In this document: positions 8,037 through 28,473 of the stretch, in pieces
Position numbering within the stretch: the stretch's first letter is position 1
How the letters are laid out: each line of letters opens with the position of its first letter
Assembly: GCA_903822525.1 (NCBI GenBank)
Contig: CAIJPI010000180.1
Span: 1-46,370, forward strand
Length of the DNA stretch: 46,370 bases
Source of the DNA: an uncultured Bacteroidales bacterium
Lineage (GTDB): Bacteria; Bacteroidota; Bacteroidia; Bacteroidales; UBA4417
Direction: 5' to 3'
Notes under the pieces: generated by a model
Seen by the model: the letters and a program-made list of their open reading frames with translations, nothing else
Told to the model about the DNA's origin: nothing
Database searches by the model: none
Translations under genes and position numbers: made by a program

Positions 8037-8582
8037 TTATTTTCCTTCCTCTACGAGTGGCATAATGGTATCATCGTGCCAACTGGCATACATGGTATAG
8101 CTTTTCGAGATCCTGTTTACCTGTCCTTCAAGCAGGGATTCATCGATCGATTTTATCTTTTTTGCTGGTACACCGGCATAAATGCTTCCTGATTCAACGA
8201 GGGTGTTTTGCGATAACACGGCTCCTGCAGCAATAATAGAGTTGCTTTCAACAACAACCCCATCCATTACAATGGCACCCATGCCTATTAAAACATTGTC
8301 ATGAATAGTGCAACCGTGTATAATGGCTGCATGAGCAATGGAAACATTATTGCCAATACTAACCGGGGCTTTCTGATAAGTACAGTGAATAATAGCACCA
8401 TCCTGTATGTTCACGTTATTTCCAATACGTATGGAATGAACATCGCCACGGATCACAGTATTGAACCAAACACTGCAGTTGTCGCCCATCACAACATCTC
8501 CAACAATTGTTGCATTTTCGGCAATAAAAGTATTTTTACCGATCGACGGGGAAATTCCTTTAATGGGATAGATGAGGGGCAT
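8037..8582 (-). CDS. Gamma-carbonic-anhydrase-like hexapeptide-repeat protein
   Basis: A 181-residue left-handed beta-helix protein of the gamma-CA / YrdA / PaaY group. Hexapeptide repeats run from about residue 15 to 135 (NATIVG, NCSVWF, NVSIAH, NVLIGM, NSIIAA). The three zinc-ligand histidines of the family are in place (H66 in AIIHC, H84 in SIAHA, H89 in IIHGC), so it may bind metal. GVPAKKIK near the C-terminus is the usual end of the helix. Carbonic anhydrase activity in this subgroup is often weak or unproven, so I leave the reaction open. It is 135 bases downstream of nadB, and that gap is filled by heptad repeats. Confidence 0.88.
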   Translation of the reverse strand: MPLIYPIKGISPSIGKNTFIAENATIVGDVVMGDNCSVWFNTVIRGDVHSIRIGNNVNIQDGAIIHCTYQKAPVSIGNNVSIAHAAIIHGCTIHDNVLIGMGAIVMDGVVVESNSIIAAGAVLSQNTLVESGSIYAGVPAKKIKSIDESLLEGQVNRISKSYTMYASWHDDTIMPLVEEGK

Positions 8583-8596
8583 TGGGTGGAGATTTT

Positions 8597-8644
8597 GGAT
8601 GTGTGATGTTGGATGTGTGATGTTGGATGTGTGATGTTGGATGT
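8597..8644 (+). repeat. 14-bp (2 x 7) tandem repeat, array A1
   Basis: GGATGTGTGATGTT occurs three times exactly (8597, 8611, 8625) plus a 6-base partial copy. Each 14-mer is two related heptads, GGATGTG and TGATGTT. It lies in the nadB to gamma-CA gap and opposes the C-rich array A2. Confidence 0.95.
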
Positions 8645-8687
8645 AGAGGAGGGTTTGGTGTAAGTTAGCAGGTGATGCTTGATGTTT

Positions 8688-8713
8688 AATCCCAACCCCT
8701 AAATCCTAACCCC
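8688..8713 (-). repeat. Degenerate heptad array A2 just after the nadB stop
   Basis: On the minus strand the sequence reads GGGGTTA GGATTTA GGGGTTG GGATT, a degenerate 7-bp period, starting 4 bases after the nadB TGA. It is in the opposite orientation to A1, 43 bases away. Confidence 0.75.
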
Positions 8714-8717
8714 TTTT

Positions 8718-10316
8718 TCAATCTTCAGGGCTGAAAGGAAATACATCAGCATCGCTGCCTTTTGGATAATCAATTGAGAAATGCAGGCCGCGGCTTTCTT
8801 TGCGTTCGAGTGCCATTTTAATTATAAGGGTGGCAACTTTGATCAGGTTGCGTACTTCGCAGATCTTATCAATCAGTACTGAGCGTTTGTAAAGATCTTC
8901 GGTTTCACGCTCAAGTATATTGAGTCTGTCGGCAGCTCGTTTTAACCGCAGGTTCGATCGTACTATGCCTACATAATTGGTCATGATACCTTGCAATTCT
9001 CTCATGGTCTGGGTAATAAGTACCATTTCTTCGTTCATAACGGTTCCTTCAGCATTCCAGTCGGGGATTTCGCTGCAGAATTCAATATGTTTAAGTTGCT
9101 CAGAGGAGTTGATACAGGCACGGTGTGAGTATACAAGCGACTCAAGCAGCGAATTGCTGGCAAGACGGTTAGCGCCATGCAGCCCGGTGGAGGAACATTC
9201 GCCTGATGCATATAAGTTAATGATAGAGCTCCGGCCCCATTCATCTACCTTAATGCCACCGCAAACATAATGTGCAGCAGGTACGATTGGAATCATTTCT
9301 TTTGAAATATCAATACCGATGGTAAGGCATTTGGCATAAATGCCGGGGAAATGATTAATAAGGTCGTTGCGGTTCAGGTGGCGGCAGTCGAGGAACATAT
9401 GATCTTCGCCACTTATCTTTAATTCGTTGTCAATGGCCCGGGCAACAATATCACGAGGGGCAAGCGACTGGCGTTTGTCATATTTCTGCATGAATTCGTT
9501 GCCGTTAACATCTTTCAGTATTCCTCCAAAACCACGTAATGCCTCTGTAATCAGGAATGAGGGTTTCTCGGACGGATTGTACAAAGATGTTGGATGGAAC
9601 TGTATAAATTCCATTTTTTCGATGGTTCCCTTTGCACGGTATACCATGGCAATGCCGTCGCCGGTGGCTATCGGAGGGTTGGTAGTGGTAGCATATACAT
9701 TGCCGGCGCCTCCAGTGGCCATAAGGGTCACTTTTGCTAAGATGGTATCGATGCTGTTGTTGGCATGATTAAGAACATATGCGCCATAACAAGTTATATC
9801 AGGAGTACGGCGGTTAACATACATACCCAGGTGGTGCTGGGTTATGATTTCAACAGTAAAATGATTTTCGAGAATTTCTATATTTTGATTTTCGCGGGCC
9901 CTGGCCAGGAGAGTCTCTTCAATTTCAAGCCCTGTCTGGTCCTTATGGTGCAGTACGCGAAACTCGGAATGCCCGCCTTCTTTGGCAAGGTCGTATTTCC
10001 CTGATGCATTTTTATCAAAGCTTACACCTAATTCAATCAGTTCTTTGATTCGTTCCGGTGCTTCGGTGATAGTAATCCTTACAGCTTTTTCGTCGTTCAG
10101 GTCGTCACCTGCTATAAGCGTGTCCTGTATGTGTTTCTCGTAAGTATCGGGGGTATACATAACTGCAGCTATTCCGCCCTGGGCGTATTTTGTTGCAGTT
10201 TCTTCGGCCTTCTGTTTAGCTACAATACAAACTTTTCCATACTTAGCCGCTTTTAAGGCAAAACTCAGCCCGGCAATACCAGTTCCAATAACCAGGAAAT
10301 CAACTTGTCTTCTCAT
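8718..10316 (-). CDS. nadB: L-aspartate oxidase
   Basis: FAD enzyme that oxidises L-aspartate to iminoaspartate, the first step of de novo NAD synthesis. It is 532 residues from the ATG at 10316; the track's TTG at 10319 is directly before it and is not needed. N-terminal FAD fold FLVIGTGIAGLSFALKAA (about residues 7-24), YAQGGIAAVMY (about 45-55), substrate-site HSEFRVLHHKDQTG (about 116-129), FIQFHPTSLY, and RDIVARAID. The C-terminal helical domain is full length. NadA and NadC are not in the window. A TAccTTTG box lies 24 bases upstream of the ATG, and a MITE-like element lies about 110 bases upstream. Fumarate reductase flavoprotein is the main alternative, but the length and motifs favour NadB. 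Confidence 0.93.
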   Translation of the reverse strand: MRRQVDFLVIGTGIAGLSFALKAAKYGKVCIVAKQKAEETATKYAQGGIAAVMYTPDTYEKHIQDTLIAGDDLNDEKAVRITITEAPERIKELIELGVSFDKNASGKYDLAKEGGHSEFRVLHHKDQTGLEIEETLLARARENQNIEILENHFTVEIITQHHLGMYVNRRTPDITCYGAYVLNHANNSIDTILAKVTLMATGGAGNVYATTTNPPIATGDGIAMVYRAKGTIEKMEFIQFHPTSLYNPSEKPSFLITEALRGFGGILKDVNGNEFMQKYDKRQSLAPRDIVARAIDNELKISGEDHMFLDCRHLNRNDLINHFPGIYAKCLTIGIDISKEMIPIVPAAHYVCGGIKVDEWGRSSIINLYASGECSSTGLHGANRLASNSLLESLVYSHRACINSSEQLKHIEFCSEIPDWNAEGTVMNEEMVLITQTMRELQGIMTNYVGIVRSNLRLKRAADRLNILERETEDLYKRSVLIDKICEVRNLIKVATLIIKMALERKESRGLHFSIDYPKGSDADVFPFSPED

Positions 10317-10340
10317 CAATTATAATACTTTTCAGATGTG

Positions 10341-10348: not shown

Positions 10349-10427
10349 GCAAATATTGTTGCCTTTATTGGGTTTTGCCTTACAACAAGAATAAAACCAG
10401 GTATTCCTTTCCTGGGGTAAAAATTAA

Positions 10428-10435
10428 ATAAACTA
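10428..10435. repeat. Left 8-bp target-site duplication
   Basis: ATAAACTA directly outside the left end of the MITE-like element, identical to 10615-10622. Confidence 0.8.
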
Positions 10436-10614
10436 GGTTCTGTTTTAGAATATTGTAGCAGGAATTGATTCTGATATATAGTGCATAGTGCTATGTGCTT
10501 AGCATCATTTATTTGTATTTATCAATCCTGTAGCTTGTCTGCAATATACTCTCTGAGCACTGAGCACTTTGCACTAAGCACAAATGATTTTCCACATTTT
10601 CCTTAAACAGAACC
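10436..10614. mobile_element. 179-bp MITE-like non-autonomous element
   Basis: The ends are GGTTCTGTTTTAG and CTTAAACAGAACC, inverted repeats that match at 12 of 13 positions (first 10 perfect). Immediately outside both ends is the same 8-mer ATAAACTA (10428-10435 and 10615-10622), an exact target-site duplication. The interior has no ORF. It carries two facing heptad arrays: TAGTGCA TAGTGCT ATGTGCT on the left (10479-10499) and GAGCACT GAGCACT TTGCACT AAGCACA on the right (10555-10582). The 8-bp duplication with GG ends would suit mobilisation by an IS1595-type or similar transposase, but that is inference. Confidence 0.82.
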
Positions 10615-10622
10615 ATAAACTA
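10615..10622. repeat. Right 8-bp target-site duplication
   Basis: ATAAACTA directly outside the right end of the MITE-like element, identical to 10428-10435. Confidence 0.8.
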
Positions 10623-12022: not shown

Positions 12023-12046
12023 CAGAAATTTACACTTTTCATTAAA

Positions 12047-12108
12047 CATCCAACATCCGCAATCCGCGATCCGCAATCCGCAATCCGCAATCCGCAATCC
12101 GCAATCCT
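12047..12108 (-). repeat. Heptad array B2 abutting the sucA stop
   Basis: On the plus strand AATCCGC is repeated in strict 7-bp register from 12061 to 12102 (one GATCCGC variant), with weaker copies before and a partial copy after. Read in the sucA sense it is GGATTGC repeats, starting one base after the TAG stop. Confidence 0.95.
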
Positions 12109-14886
12109 CTATTTCTGCTCCACGCCTCTCCATTCCTTTGGAGCACAAAGCATCTTACAGGTAATATTGCGATTCTCGCAGGTACAGTCGCCAAAAGCCT
12201 TATCAAGAATTTTGGCTTGCCGCTGAACGTGCAGTTTTGGGGAGCCAGTTGCTGGGCTGCCGCTTTCGGGACGGGCAACGAGCAATAATTTCACGCCTTT
12301 AAAATGACGGAGTATAAACGACCACGCACCCATATTGGCTGGTTCCTCCTGCACCCACGCGAATTTGGTTGCGTTAGGGTATCTTTTCATGATATCCTGC
12401 AACTGAAGTAACGGGAAAGGATATAACTGTTCGACACGGACGAAAGCAATATTGTTATGTTCGCGCTTACGCCGTTCGGCAATGAGGTCGTAATAGACTT
12501 TCCCATTGCAGAAATTCACACGCGTAACTTCTGATGGATTGGCTGTATCATCATCAATTACTTCCTGGAATACTCCTTTTGAAAGGGCTGCTACAGGTGA
12601 AATGCATTCGGGATGCCTCAGCAGGCTTTTAGGAGTGAAAACAATCAGCGGTTTGCGGAAATCGCGGTGCACCTGCCGGCGAAGCAAATGAAAAAAGTTG
12701 GCAGGAGTGGTGCAGTTGGCAACCTGTATGTTATTATCGGCACACTGCTGCAGGAAGCGTTCCATGCGTGCACTGGAGTGTTCTGGCCCCTGGCCTTCGT
12801 AACCGTGTGGAAGAAGCATCACCAACGAGTTCATTACCCGCCATTTTTCCTCAGCGCTTACAATATACTGGTCAATAACAATCTGTGCTCCGTTTATAAA
12901 ATCACCGAACTGTGCTTCCCATATGGTAAGCGAAAATGGGGAGGCAAGCGAATATCCGTATTCAAAACCCAAAACACCATACTCTGAGAGAGGTGAATTG
13001 TAAATCTGGAACGGTGCCTGTTTGGCACTGATATTTTGCAACGGAGTGTATTTCTCTTCTGAATCTTCAATAGTAAGTACAGCATGCCGATGCGAAAAAG
13101 TGCCCCGTTCCGAATCCTGTCCGCTCACGCGTACCGGTATTCCCTCTTCGAGCAAGGATGCATAAGCAAGTAATTCACCCATTGCCCAGTCCACGGTGCC
13201 ATTATCAGTAAACGTGGTTCTGCGCTCGTCCATCAGGCGGACAAGTTTTTTGAAAAACGGCTTGCCTTGAGGTACCGCTGTAATCTTCTGCGTGAGTTCC
13301 AGTAGTTGGTTAAAAGGCACACTGGTGTCGACAGGCTGAATGAAATCCTCTTCTGTAGCCGGTCGTAATTTGTGCCATGAGTTTTCGAGGAAGGTGATAA
13401 CCCTGGCTTTTTCATCATCTTTCGAATCGAGCAATTCCTGTTCAAGCCCTGCTATGAATGATTTTTCAATGTCAGCAGCTTCTTCAGCTGTTATAGAACC
13501 CTGTTCCACCAGCTTATTTATATAAATAGTCCTCGGGTCATCATGTTTCTCAATGATCTTGTATAGGATTGGCTGAGTAAAACGAGGTTCATCCCCTTCG
13601 TTGTGTCCATATTTCCGGTAGCCCAGCAGGTCGATAAATACGTCCCTGTGAAACCTTTGGCGGTATTCAACAGCAAGTTCTACTGTATAAACAACAGCTT
13701 CAACATCATCAGCATTCACATGAAAGATAGGACATTGGGTTGTTTTGGCTACATCTGTGCAATACACCGAACTGCGGGCATCAAGGTAATTGGTTGTAAA
13801 GCCAATCTGGTTATTCACAACAAGGTGAATAGTGCCGCCGGTAGTGTACCCTTTTAACTCCGACATCTGAAGGGTTTCGTACACAACTCCCTGCCCGGCG
13901 ATTGAAGCATCGCCATGTATAATAATCGGCACTACTTGCTGGTTGTCATTTTGGTATTCGGCATCAATTTTACTGCGGGTGATACCTTCCACTATCGGGC
14001 CGACAGTTTCAAGATGCGAGGGGTTAGGAGCCAGCGAAAGCTGGAGTTTTCGGCCATCGGCGGTAGTACGCTCTGATGAGAAGCCCAGGTGGTATTTTAC
14101 ATCGCCCAGCAGGTATTCGTCTTCCAGAAGTTTGCCTTCAAATTCATTAAAAATATCCTGGTATGCTTTTCCAAGTGTGTTAGCCAACACGTTGAGCCTT
14201 CCGCGGTGGGGCATTCCGATTATAAATTCGGTGATACCGGTTTCAGCTCCTTTATTGATTATTGCATCAAGAGCAGGAATAAGGGCCTCGCAGCCTTCGA
14301 GCGAAAATCGTTTCTGCCCTATATATTTTTTATGAAGAAATTTTTCGAAGAGGACTGCACGGCTGAGCTCTTTCAGAATATGCAATTTCTTTTCACGGCC
14401 GAAAACGGGTGTGTTTTGCGTGTGCTCCATGCGTGCCATCAGCCATTCGTGGATTTCAGGACGACGGATATAGGCATATTCAACACCTACACTCTGGCAA
14501 TATGTTTTTTCGAGATGATCAATAATACTGTTAAGAGTGGCATCACCAATTCCAATCTCTCCCCCGGCTTTGAATACCTGGTCGCGATCCTCCTCGGTTA
14601 GGCCAAAATTGTCAATATGCAGGGTAGGAGAGTAGGTACGACGTGTCCTGACAGGGTTTGTCTTGGTAAACAGATGCCCTCTTTTACGGTATTCGTTAAT
14701 CAGATCAATAACCTTAAATTCGCCGGGTTTCATATCAGCCTGTGGCATTAGCTTTCCGCTGAATTCGAACCCCTGAAAAAACCTTCGCCAACCAGTTTCT
14801 ATGCTTTCTGGATTCTGCTTGTACTGCCGGTATAATTCTTCAATTGCATCACTATCGGCATTACTCAGAAAGGATAATTCATCCAT
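12109..14886 (-). CDS. sucA: 2-oxoglutarate dehydrogenase E1 component
   Basis: Thiamine-diphosphate decarboxylase subunit of the 2-oxoglutarate dehydrogenase complex. 925 residues, the usual length. The N-terminal E2-binding helix (MDELSFLSNADSDAIEELYRQY) is present, then the linker with NEYRKRGHLFTKTNPVR. The catalytic core contains FIIGMPHRGRLNVLAN and the TPP/Mg motif GDASIAGQGVVYETLQMS ... VVNNQIGFTTN. The C-terminal part has the pyrimidine-side SERGTFSHRHAV and GFEYGYSLA blocks, and MLLPHGYEGQGPEHSSARMERF. ATG start at 14886, no Shine-Dalgarno. A TAatTTTG box lies about 45 bases upstream. It pairs with sucB and duplicates the reaction of korAB nearby, with NAD rather than ferredoxin as final acceptor. 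Confidence 0.96.
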   Translation of the reverse strand: MDELSFLSNADSDAIEELYRQYKQNPESIETGWRRFFQGFEFSGKLMPQADMKPGEFKVIDLINEYRKRGHLFTKTNPVRTRRTYSPTLHIDNFGLTEEDRDQVFKAGGEIGIGDATLNSIIDHLEKTYCQSVGVEYAYIRRPEIHEWLMARMEHTQNTPVFGREKKLHILKELSRAVLFEKFLHKKYIGQKRFSLEGCEALIPALDAIINKGAETGITEFIIGMPHRGRLNVLANTLGKAYQDIFNEFEGKLLEDEYLLGDVKYHLGFSSERTTADGRKLQLSLAPNPSHLETVGPIVEGITRSKIDAEYQNDNQQVVPIIIHGDASIAGQGVVYETLQMSELKGYTTGGTIHLVVNNQIGFTTNYLDARSSVYCTDVAKTTQCPIFHVNADDVEAVVYTVELAVEYRQRFHRDVFIDLLGYRKYGHNEGDEPRFTQPILYKIIEKHDDPRTIYINKLVEQGSITAEEAADIEKSFIAGLEQELLDSKDDEKARVITFLENSWHKLRPATEEDFIQPVDTSVPFNQLLELTQKITAVPQGKPFFKKLVRLMDERRTTFTDNGTVDWAMGELLAYASLLEEGIPVRVSGQDSERGTFSHRHAVLTIEDSEEKYTPLQNISAKQAPFQIYNSPLSEYGVLGFEYGYSLASPFSLTIWEAQFGDFINGAQIVIDQYIVSAEEKWRVMNSLVMLLPHGYEGQGPEHSSARMERFLQQCADNNIQVANCTTPANFFHLLRRQVHRDFRKPLIVFTPKSLLRHPECISPVAALSKGVFQEVIDDDTANPSEVTRVNFCNGKVYYDLIAERRKREHNNIAFVRVEQLYPFPLLQLQDIMKRYPNATKFAWVQEEPANMGAWSFILRHFKGVKLLLVARPESGSPATGSPKLHVQRQAKILDKAFGDCTCENRNITCKMLCAPKEWRGVEQK

Positions 14887-24420: not shown

Positions 24421-26271
24421 TTACTCAAAGATCTCAACTTTCAGGTTATCGATATAAACAGGGGCTTTTCCCTGAACCCAGAAATAGATTTTCACTGTAT
24501 CATCTTTTGACCGGACTTCCGGTGTGAGGTAATCTACCCGCATGGTATTCCATTGACCGGGTTTCATCGCATATTTCTTAAGTGAAATACTTGTCGCCCG
24601 GTAATTATATGGTTCTCCTTTGTGCTGGAATGTAATTACCAGCGATGCCATATTTTCCTGAACATCAGAAACAGGATAAATTTCTACTTCTGCGCGTAAC
24701 CAGGCATGATCTTTTGCAGTTATCTGGCTGTAAGGCATTTCCATGGCCGGCGAAAAGGGATGAGATTCATCAAGCCTGAGTGAAAATTTCCCGCCACTGA
24801 CTGTATCTTTACTTAAGGTCATTCCCTGGTCTTGTGTTTGTTCAAAGTCGAAAAAAGCAGCGGTTCGCCTGGTATAAGCTGTTTCATCTTTTAAAACCTC
24901 ATCAGCATCGGTCGGGCGCTCAATTAATAGCAGCTTACGGTCAGACTCAGTAAAAGATGTTTTTCCGAAAATGGCAAAATAATAAGCTTTTGTCATCCTG
25001 GTGCGCTCAATTACTCCATGTGCCCATTGCCAGGTCTGGAAAAGGTTCAGCATGAGCATCAGGGTAATTGTTGTATAAAATAGTACCCTGTAAATCTTAT
25101 TCCATGCCATAATCTGTTGGATCAGGTAACCCAAAGGGATAGCAAGCAGCACATACGACGAAAGCAATGCCCTCTGGCTGTAGCTGCCTCCTGCATACCA
25201 CCAGCAAGTCCAGCTCGAAACAATATACAGGTTTACCAGAAAATAGATCAGTAAGCTATAAAACAAAGGTTTGTTTTTTTTAAACAGACTGAAGAAACCT
25301 ATAATGGCGAAACCCATTACCGGAGTATAGATCAGCCACCCTTTCCGAAAGCTGAATAATACTTCCGAAATGTATGGCCGCTCAAAATCGAATCCTTCGC
25401 CTGCATTGTTGTAGCTATAAAAAAGCCAGTGCCCCGAACTGTACTTCCAGTAAATCAATTGAGGTAATCCTGCCACGAATGCTGTCAGAAGCAACAGAAT
25501 CACATGACGGTAGTTCGATTTTAACAAGCCGGTTTTGAATTGAAAACTCTTGCGATCGCTAATGCCCCACAATACAGGTATAATAATACAAACCAGTTCC
25601 GATGGTCTTACCAGTGCAGCAAGCCCCATGGCAAAACCGAGTCCTGAAGCATACCACAACCTGGGTTGCTCGTGCCAGCGGATCGTAAGCCAAACAATAA
25701 AAGTATATAATGTAAAAAGATAGTTATGGGAGAGGTAACCATCAAAGGCTGTAAGTTGAAAATAATTTGTGGCTAATACGATGATTATTAATAAAATGCC
25801 TGAAATTATTTCATCGAAAAACTTTAGTAGTATTTTCCTTAGCATGATAATGCCTGCTGCAGCATAAGCCAACCCGCTTAGAGCCCAGGCATACTGGTAA
25901 GGAATGGAAAATCCATCCGCTTTAAAGCCTGCAATCAGGCTGAAAATATGAGCAATAAAAAAAGCGGGGGCATTCAATACAGCCATACCCATGGAGTATT
26001 TCAGAACCCAGCCACCCGTTGGAATAGCCGTTGCCTGATAAAAGGTGGAAGTTGCCTGGTACTGATCAATCAGTTGATTAACCCATGCTATGTTGGTAAG
26101 CCTCAGGTCGTGATAAATAAAACTTGCTGGAAGGTAAAGATAATAGCCGAAAACATCCCACGACAGAATATTCACAGGCGGATACACAAACCTGAAGAAC
26201 ACTATGCCGGCAATCAGCAAAAAGCTGATCCAAAGGGAGGGCTCTTTTTTAAAGCTTGGGATGTAGTTCAT
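24421..26271 (-). CDS. Polytopic GT-C type glycosyltransferase with C-terminal beta-sandwich-like domain
   Basis: 616 residues with about ten to eleven membrane helices in the first 430. The first periplasmic loop holds NILSWDVFGYYLYLPASFIY (D39), a GT-C type acidic site; the later FRKGWLIYTPVMGFAI and SCWWYAGGSYSQRALLSSY blocks are seen in a group of uncharacterised Bacteroidota mannosyltransferase-like proteins. The C-terminal 150 residues (from about 460, FFDFEQTQDQGMTLSKDT) form a soluble domain ending DDTVKIYFWVQGKAPVYIDN, similar to the tails of the two other GT-C proteins here. A TAttTTTG box is about 25 bases upstream of the ATG. Acceptor unknown. Confidence 0.7.
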   Translation of the reverse strand: MNYIPSFKKEPSLWISFLLIAGIVFFRFVYPPVNILSWDVFGYYLYLPASFIYHDLRLTNIAWVNQLIDQYQATSTFYQATAIPTGGWVLKYSMGMAVLNAPAFFIAHIFSLIAGFKADGFSIPYQYAWALSGLAYAAAGIIMLRKILLKFFDEIISGILLIIIVLATNYFQLTAFDGYLSHNYLFTLYTFIVWLTIRWHEQPRLWYASGLGFAMGLAALVRPSELVCIIIPVLWGISDRKSFQFKTGLLKSNYRHVILLLLTAFVAGLPQLIYWKYSSGHWLFYSYNNAGEGFDFERPYISEVLFSFRKGWLIYTPVMGFAIIGFFSLFKKNKPLFYSLLIYFLVNLYIVSSWTCWWYAGGSYSQRALLSSYVLLAIPLGYLIQQIMAWNKIYRVLFYTTITLMLMLNLFQTWQWAHGVIERTRMTKAYYFAIFGKTSFTESDRKLLLIERPTDADEVLKDETAYTRRTAAFFDFEQTQDQGMTLSKDTVSGGKFSLRLDESHPFSPAMEMPYSQITAKDHAWLRAEVEIYPVSDVQENMASLVITFQHKGEPYNYRATSISLKKYAMKPGQWNTMRVDYLTPEVRSKDDTVKIYFWVQGKAPVYIDNLKVEIFE

Positions 26272-26303: not shown

Positions 26304-26470
26304 TGCGACCAGTAAGATGGCGAAATGGAGATAAAGTGAAACCAAAAAAATCTCTGTCTTGTCTTCCTATTTGAATTCATATATTAACTGCCTTAAAATA
26401 TCAAGATTATAGAGCACATTAATAATCAGGGTATCTATCCACTATTAATCACCTATTCTGTCGGGTCAGC

Positions 26471-26558
26471 AATCCGCAATCCGCAATTCGCAATCCACAA
26501 TCCACAATCCGCAATCCGCAATCCACAATCCGCAATCCGAAATCCGAAATCCGCAATC
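26471..26558 (-). repeat. Heptad array C, 12 units, running into a stop codon
   Basis: On the plus strand twelve AATCC(G/A)(C/A)-type heptads follow one another in strict 7-bp register (26471-26554; one AATTCGC variant), with a partial thirteenth. In the sense of the GT-C gene at 26557 the array reads GGATTGC/GGATTGT/GGATTTC. It begins inside the TGA stop itself: the stop's TGA and the following TTGCGG belong to the first unit. Confidence 0.97.
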
Positions 26559-28473
26559 ACTCATATCCCACCTGCATATATTCCAGCTTCAGGTCATCCA
26601 CAAATACCTTTTCCTTACCTGTATACCAGACATAGACCTTGTAATTACCATTCTCAGGAACATTACGGTCGACAACATCAGTCAGGGTGATATTGAACCA
26701 CTCGCCAGACGTATACGCAGTTTCAGAATCCTTTGCAATTATATACCTGTATACTTTATGATCGGGATCATCAATACTCAATACAAGAATAATCTGTCCC
26801 TTTTCAGATTGTGAGGGGTTCAGAATACGGGCTGTTGCCCTAAGCGAAATAGTGCCTGCACCGGGTAAATTCTGAAGCTTGGCTTCCGCCGCCGGACTGT
26901 ATGTGTTTAAAGCAGTCAGAAGTATCGATTGTTTGCCACTGCTTTGCTTTTCAGTTGAAACAAATTTCATCTGTTCCTCTGTCAAACTGCCTTCGAAGTC
27001 GTTGAGGTAGAATTGCTTGTATACAGCTGCAGTTGTATCTCTGGGCGCTTTCATAAATACAGCCAGCTTATATTTTGAGCCACCAATAATGGTGAAACTT
27101 TCGGAGGGGGTAAATATATTCAGAAGCCTGAGGTTGTTATTTTTCATTAGCGAATCAAAAGGCAGATGCCCTTCATACCCGGCAAACTGTGCATCCCATA
27201 TCAGCAATTCGCCTGGCTTAAGTAAGGAAGCCGGATCAATATTTTCGAATGTATAAACTTTAAAACATTTTTGCTGATCGAAAGGATCAATATCCATATA
27301 AAATGGGTACATCGGGTCTGTATACAACGCCTTGTGCTTGCTGTATGACGAGGTTTTAAGCCAGTCAGTAAGTTTCTCCATTACCGCAAAGTTAATACCT
27401 GTTTTCATAGGAATTTTGTCATAGGTAAATGGTTTGTAAACCACCAGTGTTATAATAAATGTTGCAAGTACGAAGTAAATAAATTTCATTGCTTTTGCCT
27501 TTTCCATTATCCATTCAAAACCTGCCAACACAATCAACGAACTTAACGGAAGCACACAGGCAATAAACCGGGTCGATCCCAACACACCCATCATGCCTTG
27601 CCACCATAGGATACTTTGTGCAAGGATAAATCCCAAAAAGGCTGGAATTATCAGAAAATACAAGGTCACATTTTTTATATCACTAAGGTTTTTAACCCCT
27701 GTTCTCAAATTGAATACTATGACGGAAAGTCCTGTGATAAACAGGATAAGAAGGGGGTAATTTAAAATGAAGATCATCTCCTTCATATAAAACCAGAACG
27801 ATCCGCTTCCATATAAATCGGAACCTGCACTGCTGTATGGCATCTTTGTAAAAAACCACAACGGATCATGATACATTGGCCATCCGGAAATACTGAATAG
27901 TATAAATCCTGTCAGCAGGAAGGGCAATGATTTATACTGTTTCATCCAGATAAGTGCCGGGATAAACAGTACGATATACATCATCCCTTCCGTCCGTGCA
28001 AATGGGATCAACGAAATTAGAATGGATGCCGCAAAAAAGCGTTTACTGATAAATAGGTATATGGATGCAATAAGCACCAGGCTGAATAAAATTTCGGTCA
28101 GACTGGTGAACATGATAAACAGATAAACCGGTGTAAACAGTGTGAAAATGATAGCCACCCATGCATGTCGGTATTCCAGCCGTTTAGCAATCAGGTATGC
28201 AAACCAGGCGCTCAGTAAGCCACACAGCAGGTTGAAAGCAATTGCTCCGGAATACCCAAACTGCGATAAGGGAGAAGCCAGAATGGTGAAAAGGGGTTTT
28301 CCCCAGTGATTCAGGAAAAAGGAAGGGTACTTAAAAGCATACCGTGCAATCTGATAATGCGTAATTGAATCAGTTTCTCCATCCACTCCGGTTGACAACC
28401 ATTGAACTCCAATCAAAGCAATAGTGCTGATAAGCAATACAATTGGAGCCAGGGTTTTATCAGTAAATTTCAT
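26557..28473 (-). CDS. Polytopic GT-C type glycosyltransferase with C-terminal beta-sandwich-like domain
   Basis: 638 residues. About ten membrane helices occupy residues 8-345. The first loop carries STGVDGETDSITHYQIARYA (D31, E33, D35), matching the acidic site of ArnT/GT39-like enzymes, and NHWGKPLFTILASP follows. After a soluble region a C-terminal domain (about 480-638, YLNDFEGSLTEEQMKF) ends YKVYVWYTGKEKVFVDDLKL, similar to the tails of the GT-C proteins at 21523 and 24421. ATG start at 28473. It is the third such enzyme in 7 kb, and probably uses a polyprenyl-phosphate sugar made by one of the two GT2 proteins (inference). Its stop codon is merged with a heptad array. Confidence 0.72.
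   Translation of the reverse strand: MKFTDKTLAPIVLLISTIALIGVQWLSTGVDGETDSITHYQIARYAFKYPSFFLNHWGKPLFTILASPLSQFGYSGAIAFNLLCGLLSAWFAYLIAKRLEYRHAWVAIIFTLFTPVYLFIMFTSLTEILFSLVLIASIYLFISKRFFAASILISLIPFARTEGMMYIVLFIPALIWMKQYKSLPFLLTGFILFSISGWPMYHDPLWFFTKMPYSSAGSDLYGSGSFWFYMKEMIFILNYPLLILFITGLSVIVFNLRTGVKNLSDIKNVTLYFLIIPAFLGFILAQSILWWQGMMGVLGSTRFIACVLPLSSLIVLAGFEWIMEKAKAMKFIYFVLATFIITLVVYKPFTYDKIPMKTGINFAVMEKLTDWLKTSSYSKHKALYTDPMYPFYMDIDPFDQQKCFKVYTFENIDPASLLKPGELLIWDAQFAGYEGHLPFDSLMKNNNLRLLNIFTPSESFTIIGGSKYKLAVFMKAPRDTTAAVYKQFYLNDFEGSLTEEQMKFVSTEKQSSGKQSILLTALNTYSPAAEAKLQNLPGAGTISLRATARILNPSQSEKGQIILVLSIDDPDHKVYRYIIAKDSETAYTSGEWFNITLTDVVDRNVPENGNYKVYVWYTGKEKVFVDDLKLEYMQVGYE

Follow-up and report, generated by a model that had tools for sequence, protein, structure and literature searches.

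A heptanucleotide array that begins in a stop codon is one of many dispersed heptad repeats in an uncultured Bacteroidales genome

Why does the stop codon of a putative membrane protein gene form part of a long and regular tandem repeat, and does the repeat serve that gene? The question is raised by a heptad array at positions 26471-26558 (minus strand) of a 46,370-nucleotide stretch of DNA from an uncultured Bacteroidales bacterium (called the window for simplicity), which is part of a 149-kb contig in a genome of 4.1 Mb and 354 contigs whose nearest named relatives are MAGs of uncultured Bacteroidales or Bacteroidetes. Read on the plus strand, the array consists of twelve heptads (units 1-6: AATCCGC, AATCCGC, AATTCGC, AATCCAC, AATCCAC, AATCCGC; units 7-12: AATCCGC, AATCCAC, AATCCGC, AATCCGA, AATCCGA, AATCCGC) followed by AATC, i.e. 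twelve units and four bases with the sense forms GATTGCG, GATTTCG and GATTGTG. It is free of indels, as the preliminary description had stated and as both direct reading and TRF bear out; the TRF interval (26469-26558, period 7, 12.9 copies, 90% matches, 0% indels) had the top score within the window. The period-7 score of the array was 63.5, compared with a best value of 10.5 among 60 first-order Markov windows of equal length. The consensus AATCC(G/A)(C/A) proposed earlier fits eleven of the twelve units and fails for AATTCGC, the single unit that departs from the AATCC core. The proposal that the array expanded by blocks found no support: at lags of 1-6 units, the order of the variants was no better than in shuffled unit orders (lowest P 0.20).

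On the sense strand, the end of the gene reads TGA followed by TTGCGGATTTCGG... The first base of the array is the G of the TGA stop codon (26557-26559, minus strand), of which G and A are in repeat register and T lies outside. Since G and A extend the array, two of the three stop bases are part of the first unit, in agreement with the earlier reading. From there the array runs away from the gene, and a change in copy number would spare the protein, as had also been claimed. The upstream gene (ORF 26557-28473, minus strand) encodes a polytopic membrane protein of 638 residues with about 7 hydrophobic segments and the C-terminus GYE*. This C-terminus is common to two relatives (L085 and L086) in which the gene ends in TAA and TAG, respectively, with different arrays downstream, indicating that the length of the protein is unaltered by the array. 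The GT-C identity given to the gene is plausible from its predicted hydrophobic segments and from a match to an NCBIfam 'cell surface glycopolymer formation' family at E 7e-6, far under the family cut-off; it is unproven, the search for Pfam families having returned none. A similar C-terminal domain of ~155 residues is present in the polytopic neighbour encoded at 24421-26271, and alignments of G003, G008 and G013 to the product of ORF 26557-28473 stop near residue 480, so that this domain may be a module that is gained or lost. The array itself is probably transcribed, as a 3' UTR, with no gene-specific role; an Rfam scan of the window returned 0 matches and a terminator scan found none at the array.

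The same repeat recurs throughout the genome. Three tandem copies of AATCCGC were found at 30 places, compared with 0 for the reversed control, and BLAST with the whole array as query returned 51 places. Within the window, a second array of the GGATTGC family (12045-12107, minus strand) starts 1 nt past the TAG stop of the 2-oxoglutarate dehydrogenase (OGDH) E1 gene at 12109-14886, and a related 14-mer array, GGATGTGTGATGTT, lies at 8591-8644 (plus strand), its G-rich strand pointing outward from the edge at which ORF 8037-8582 starts. It is faced by degenerate G-rich words (8688-8714, minus strand, sense TAGGGGTTGGGATT) directly behind the stop of ORF 8718-10319, and the intergenic region 8583-8717 thus carries inward-facing G-rich words at both ORF edges. 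In an any-period scan over 224 kb of stretches not selected for GGATT arrays, 7 of 12 tandem arrays had a period of 7 or 14, and shuffled sequences gave 0. The main unit, GGATTGC, contains two G; GGGGATT and GGGGTTA are minor units, and further heptad families in the genome include GTGCTCA, GGGGTTA, GTGAATA and GACAGAA. Several heptad families occur at the genus level, with arrays in most genomes of the genus. Exact AATCCNN in three copies had no match in G001, G004, G006, G007 and G012; despite this, G004, G006 and G007 hold some period-7 arrays. A ~73-bp higher-order repeat composed of AATCCGC and GGTTATT heptads was seen at L271:4740-5051 (G011:C170). Apart from the genome-wide counts, the array analyses drew on the surroundings of arrays and on a small number of long contigs. 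Heptad arrays stand at the ends of contigs C123, C144, C211, C265, C351 and C62 in G000, which indicates that short-read assemblies are probably broken by arrays and that array counts are too low.

Comparison with relatives revealed that the site outlasts the unit. Behind the orthologous GT-C-like gene, a heptad or 14-mer array is present in four relatives, mostly with different units: GGTTAAT/GGTTGAT heptads in G002 and G011, the 14-mer GGATGTATGATTTC in G009, and ACGTGAA/GCGTAAA about 50 nt past the stop in L086. Site and period therefore last while the unit changes. Likewise, arrays of period 7 or 8 were found on the 3' side of the OGDH gene in 7 of 9 tested genus members, and the units mostly differ. 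Twenty-one genes of the window have an intergenic flank of ≥60 nt. For these, relatives carried arrays at 18 of 34 flanks whose counterpart in the window genome bears one and at 3 of 36 whose counterpart is array-free (Fisher P 6e-5; P 0.004 by permutation at gene level). Tolerant intergenic regions may account for part of this site-retention signal, and the retention across species could reflect selection for an array as such. The preliminary description had named absence or constancy in close relatives as evidence against it; this does not apply, because arrays do occupy the site in relatives, with units that vary.

The arrays also follow a polarity rule, namely that the 5' end of the G-rich strand adjoins the ORF edge. 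In stretches of 12 genomes, mostly picked for length or orthologous genes and mostly not for arrays, the rule was followed 45:10 (P 2e-6), with median distances of 9 and 183 nt. In the G000 and G011 sets, which were partly selected for GGATT arrays, the GGATT family followed it 28:5 and 43:6, respectively. When counts that draw on these sets were split by ORF edge, G-rich-sense arrays favoured the upstream stop by 116:7 and arrays with a C-rich sense the downstream start by 67:34; polarity was strongest in arrays with GG (113:17), arrays without GG giving 20:0 behind stops and 9:10 at the start side. Arrays of one family in one genome are non-independent data points in these counts, and the ORFs come from a home-made codon-score gene caller with approximate starts. 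In intergenic regions that hold two arrays, the G-rich strands converge in 24 cases and diverge in 1 (8:2 in the 12-genome stretches); the units of facing pairs are usually unlike and the gap between them is often short (often <45 nt). Background skew was considered as the source of polarity and rejected, since array-masked DNA behind stops is nearly free of outward G skew; the skew is moderate before starts (about 0.1-0.3) and may explain part of the start-side polarity. TAA is rarer among stops within 10 nt of arrays (15/48) than usual (392/685).

We consider it probable, at roughly 60%, that the array is a slippage-born, fast-turning dispersed heptanucleotide repeat (sense GGATTGC and variants) that is tolerated outside ORFs. 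Replication slippage, together with recombination between like arrays, would create arrays and alter their length, a process we infer from the fact that units are common within genomes and differ between them. Exchange among like arrays would homogenise the units of any one genome, the unit would drift from species to species, and arrays would persist where harm is small. G-rich-sense arrays, which offer GGA-like ribosome sites together with TTG, GTG or ATG starts, may be excluded near start codons and for this reason accumulate directly behind stops, and C-rich-sense arrays may be tolerated before starts. Such selection against a G-rich sense near starts would produce a strong rule on the stop side and a weak one on the start side. 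Avoidance of start codons alone does not account for the close contact with the ORF edge, however, as the median of 9 nt in the 12-genome stretches is tighter than avoidance requires.

The G-rich strand might instead act as a two-tetrad G-quadruplex, in the DNA or at the mRNA 3' end, and affect transcription or mRNA stability, as has been proposed for GGGNATC repeats. We regard this as unlikely on the present analysis. The sense strand does offer GG every 7 nt, arrays with GG have the strongest polarity, and the placement matches that of the GGGNATC repeats, for which Rehm et al. 2015 (PMC4692102) showed G4 formation in vitro with GGG or GGGG units. The main units of the array family, however, hold GG only, one relative carries units without GG (ACGTGAA) at the very same site, and the predicted RNA fold did not exceed shuffled sequences (z 1.26, a measure of secondary structure only, with quadruplexes outside the model). 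Polarity also holds behind stops in units without GG, and a quadruplex is thus unnecessary for the placement.

A contingency locus, in which slippage would alter the copy number and tune expression of the GT-C-like gene via its 3' UTR, is improbable. The array is long and fairly pure, and the weak NCBIfam match is consistent with an envelope-type gene. A repeat that switches expression by its length would be expected inside the ORF or promoter; this one begins within the stop codon, extends outwards and shows no block structure. It is moreover one of dozens beside unrelated genes, that of OGDH included, and relatives carry other units there; with genes so many and varied adjoining arrays, switching of the GT-C-like gene in particular is unlikely. 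The gene-specific 3' UTR switch implied earlier is accordingly not supported. Overall, what the preliminary description observed is confirmed, and what it made of the observation is partly supported.

Transport of the array by a mobile element of the MITE or REP/RAYT type is very improbable, even though one unit occupies many loci and Y1 transposases are present. Y1_Tnp was found in 16/16 genomes, array-poor ones included, and the flanks of GGATT arrays within one genome have no common sequence except other repeats, i.e. no conserved element beyond the repeat at several loci. The GTGCTCA heptad family does lie within a dispersed element. This intergenic element of ~190 bp, with GTGCTCA/GTGCTTA heptads, stands at 10424-10621 of the window and has copies of about 89-97% identity on at least 4 further contigs of this genome (L146, L148, L149, L153). 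A second dispersed intergenic family, its members about 225 bp long, in both orientations and with identities of about 86-95%, was seen at L137:19313-19611, L144:5562-5966, L149:4937-5257, L243:1541-2203 and L238:4115-4793.

No better placed is polar growth, by which units would be added to G-rich 3' ends at intergenic breaks and the ends then joined, leaving two facing arrays, each with its back to an ORF edge. This would suit the convergent, usually unlike pairs with their often short gaps, the close contact of arrays with ORF edges and the array that forms part of a stop codon. Against it, Ku is absent from 16/16 genus genomes, reverse transcriptases are patchy and unrelated to array load, and end addition is supported by no observation; a purity gradient along the arrays, considered as a trace of such growth, was not found. 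Remoter still is the notion of telomere-like end addition in a bacterial chromosome, by which a polar process in this clade would add inward G-rich heptads at both ORF edges and so replace the intergenic DNA, with site and period unchanged. Across the genus genomes, the presence of Y1 transposase, Ku, MutS or reverse transcriptase gave no usable correlation with array load. The genome richest in exact AATCC arrays, G011, shows no strong canonical match to MutS, unlike nearly all other genus members; this could be an assembly gap. An assembly artefact can practically be dismissed: the MAG is in 354 contigs and several arrays stand at contig ends, but the array, at 88 bp, is below the common read length and interior to a contig of 149 kb, and the site carries arrays in independent MAGs as well.

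Read as a slippage-born repeat, the array is ordinary in kind, and polarity and unit exchange are the aspects that deserve follow-up. Heptad repeats are known from several phyla without an accepted function. The genus provides an internal comparison: at a single site the period stays and the units change, and the polarity rule extends to units without GG. This makes placement separable from quadruplex formation and allows slippage, polar growth and selection against a G-rich sense close to starts to be weighed against one another. Arrays of this kind have been reported from other bacteria before. The cyanobacterial STRR, which differ from the window array in unit and phylum, likewise consist of tandem heptanucleotides scattered through intergenic DNA. 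The TAACTGA heptamers of Beggiatoaceae, Cyanobacteria and a few Bacteroidetes, as described in MacGregor 2015 (PMC4679880), reach 43 copies with other heptamers intermixed; they resemble our repeats in being intergenic and mixed and in having Bacteroidetes hosts, and differ in the unit and in lying, in a Beggiatoaceae genome, mostly just upstream of start codons. The GGGNATC heptads of Xanthomonas and Nostoc are dispersed and non-coding according to Rehm et al. 2015 (PMC4692102), who found no function for them; they lie within 50 bp of a stop (sense strand) or a start (antisense), in some cases overlapping the stop, and two Xanthomonas species have the same gene neighbours with repeats varying in length and sequence. 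Neither source, in the parts considered, spells out facing unlike pairs or unit exchange at a kept site. Like these heptads, the window array is a tandem 7-nt unit at many genome places, mostly outside ORFs and near a stop (sense) or a start (antisense). Its main unit, GGATTGC, has GG and not the run of at least three G that marks GGGNATC, and we therefore class it as a general heptanucleotide SSR. It further differs from the GGGNATC repeats in its phylum, in its 12 units compared with a preference for four, and in a clade that combines several unlike unit families per genome with facing unlike pairs.
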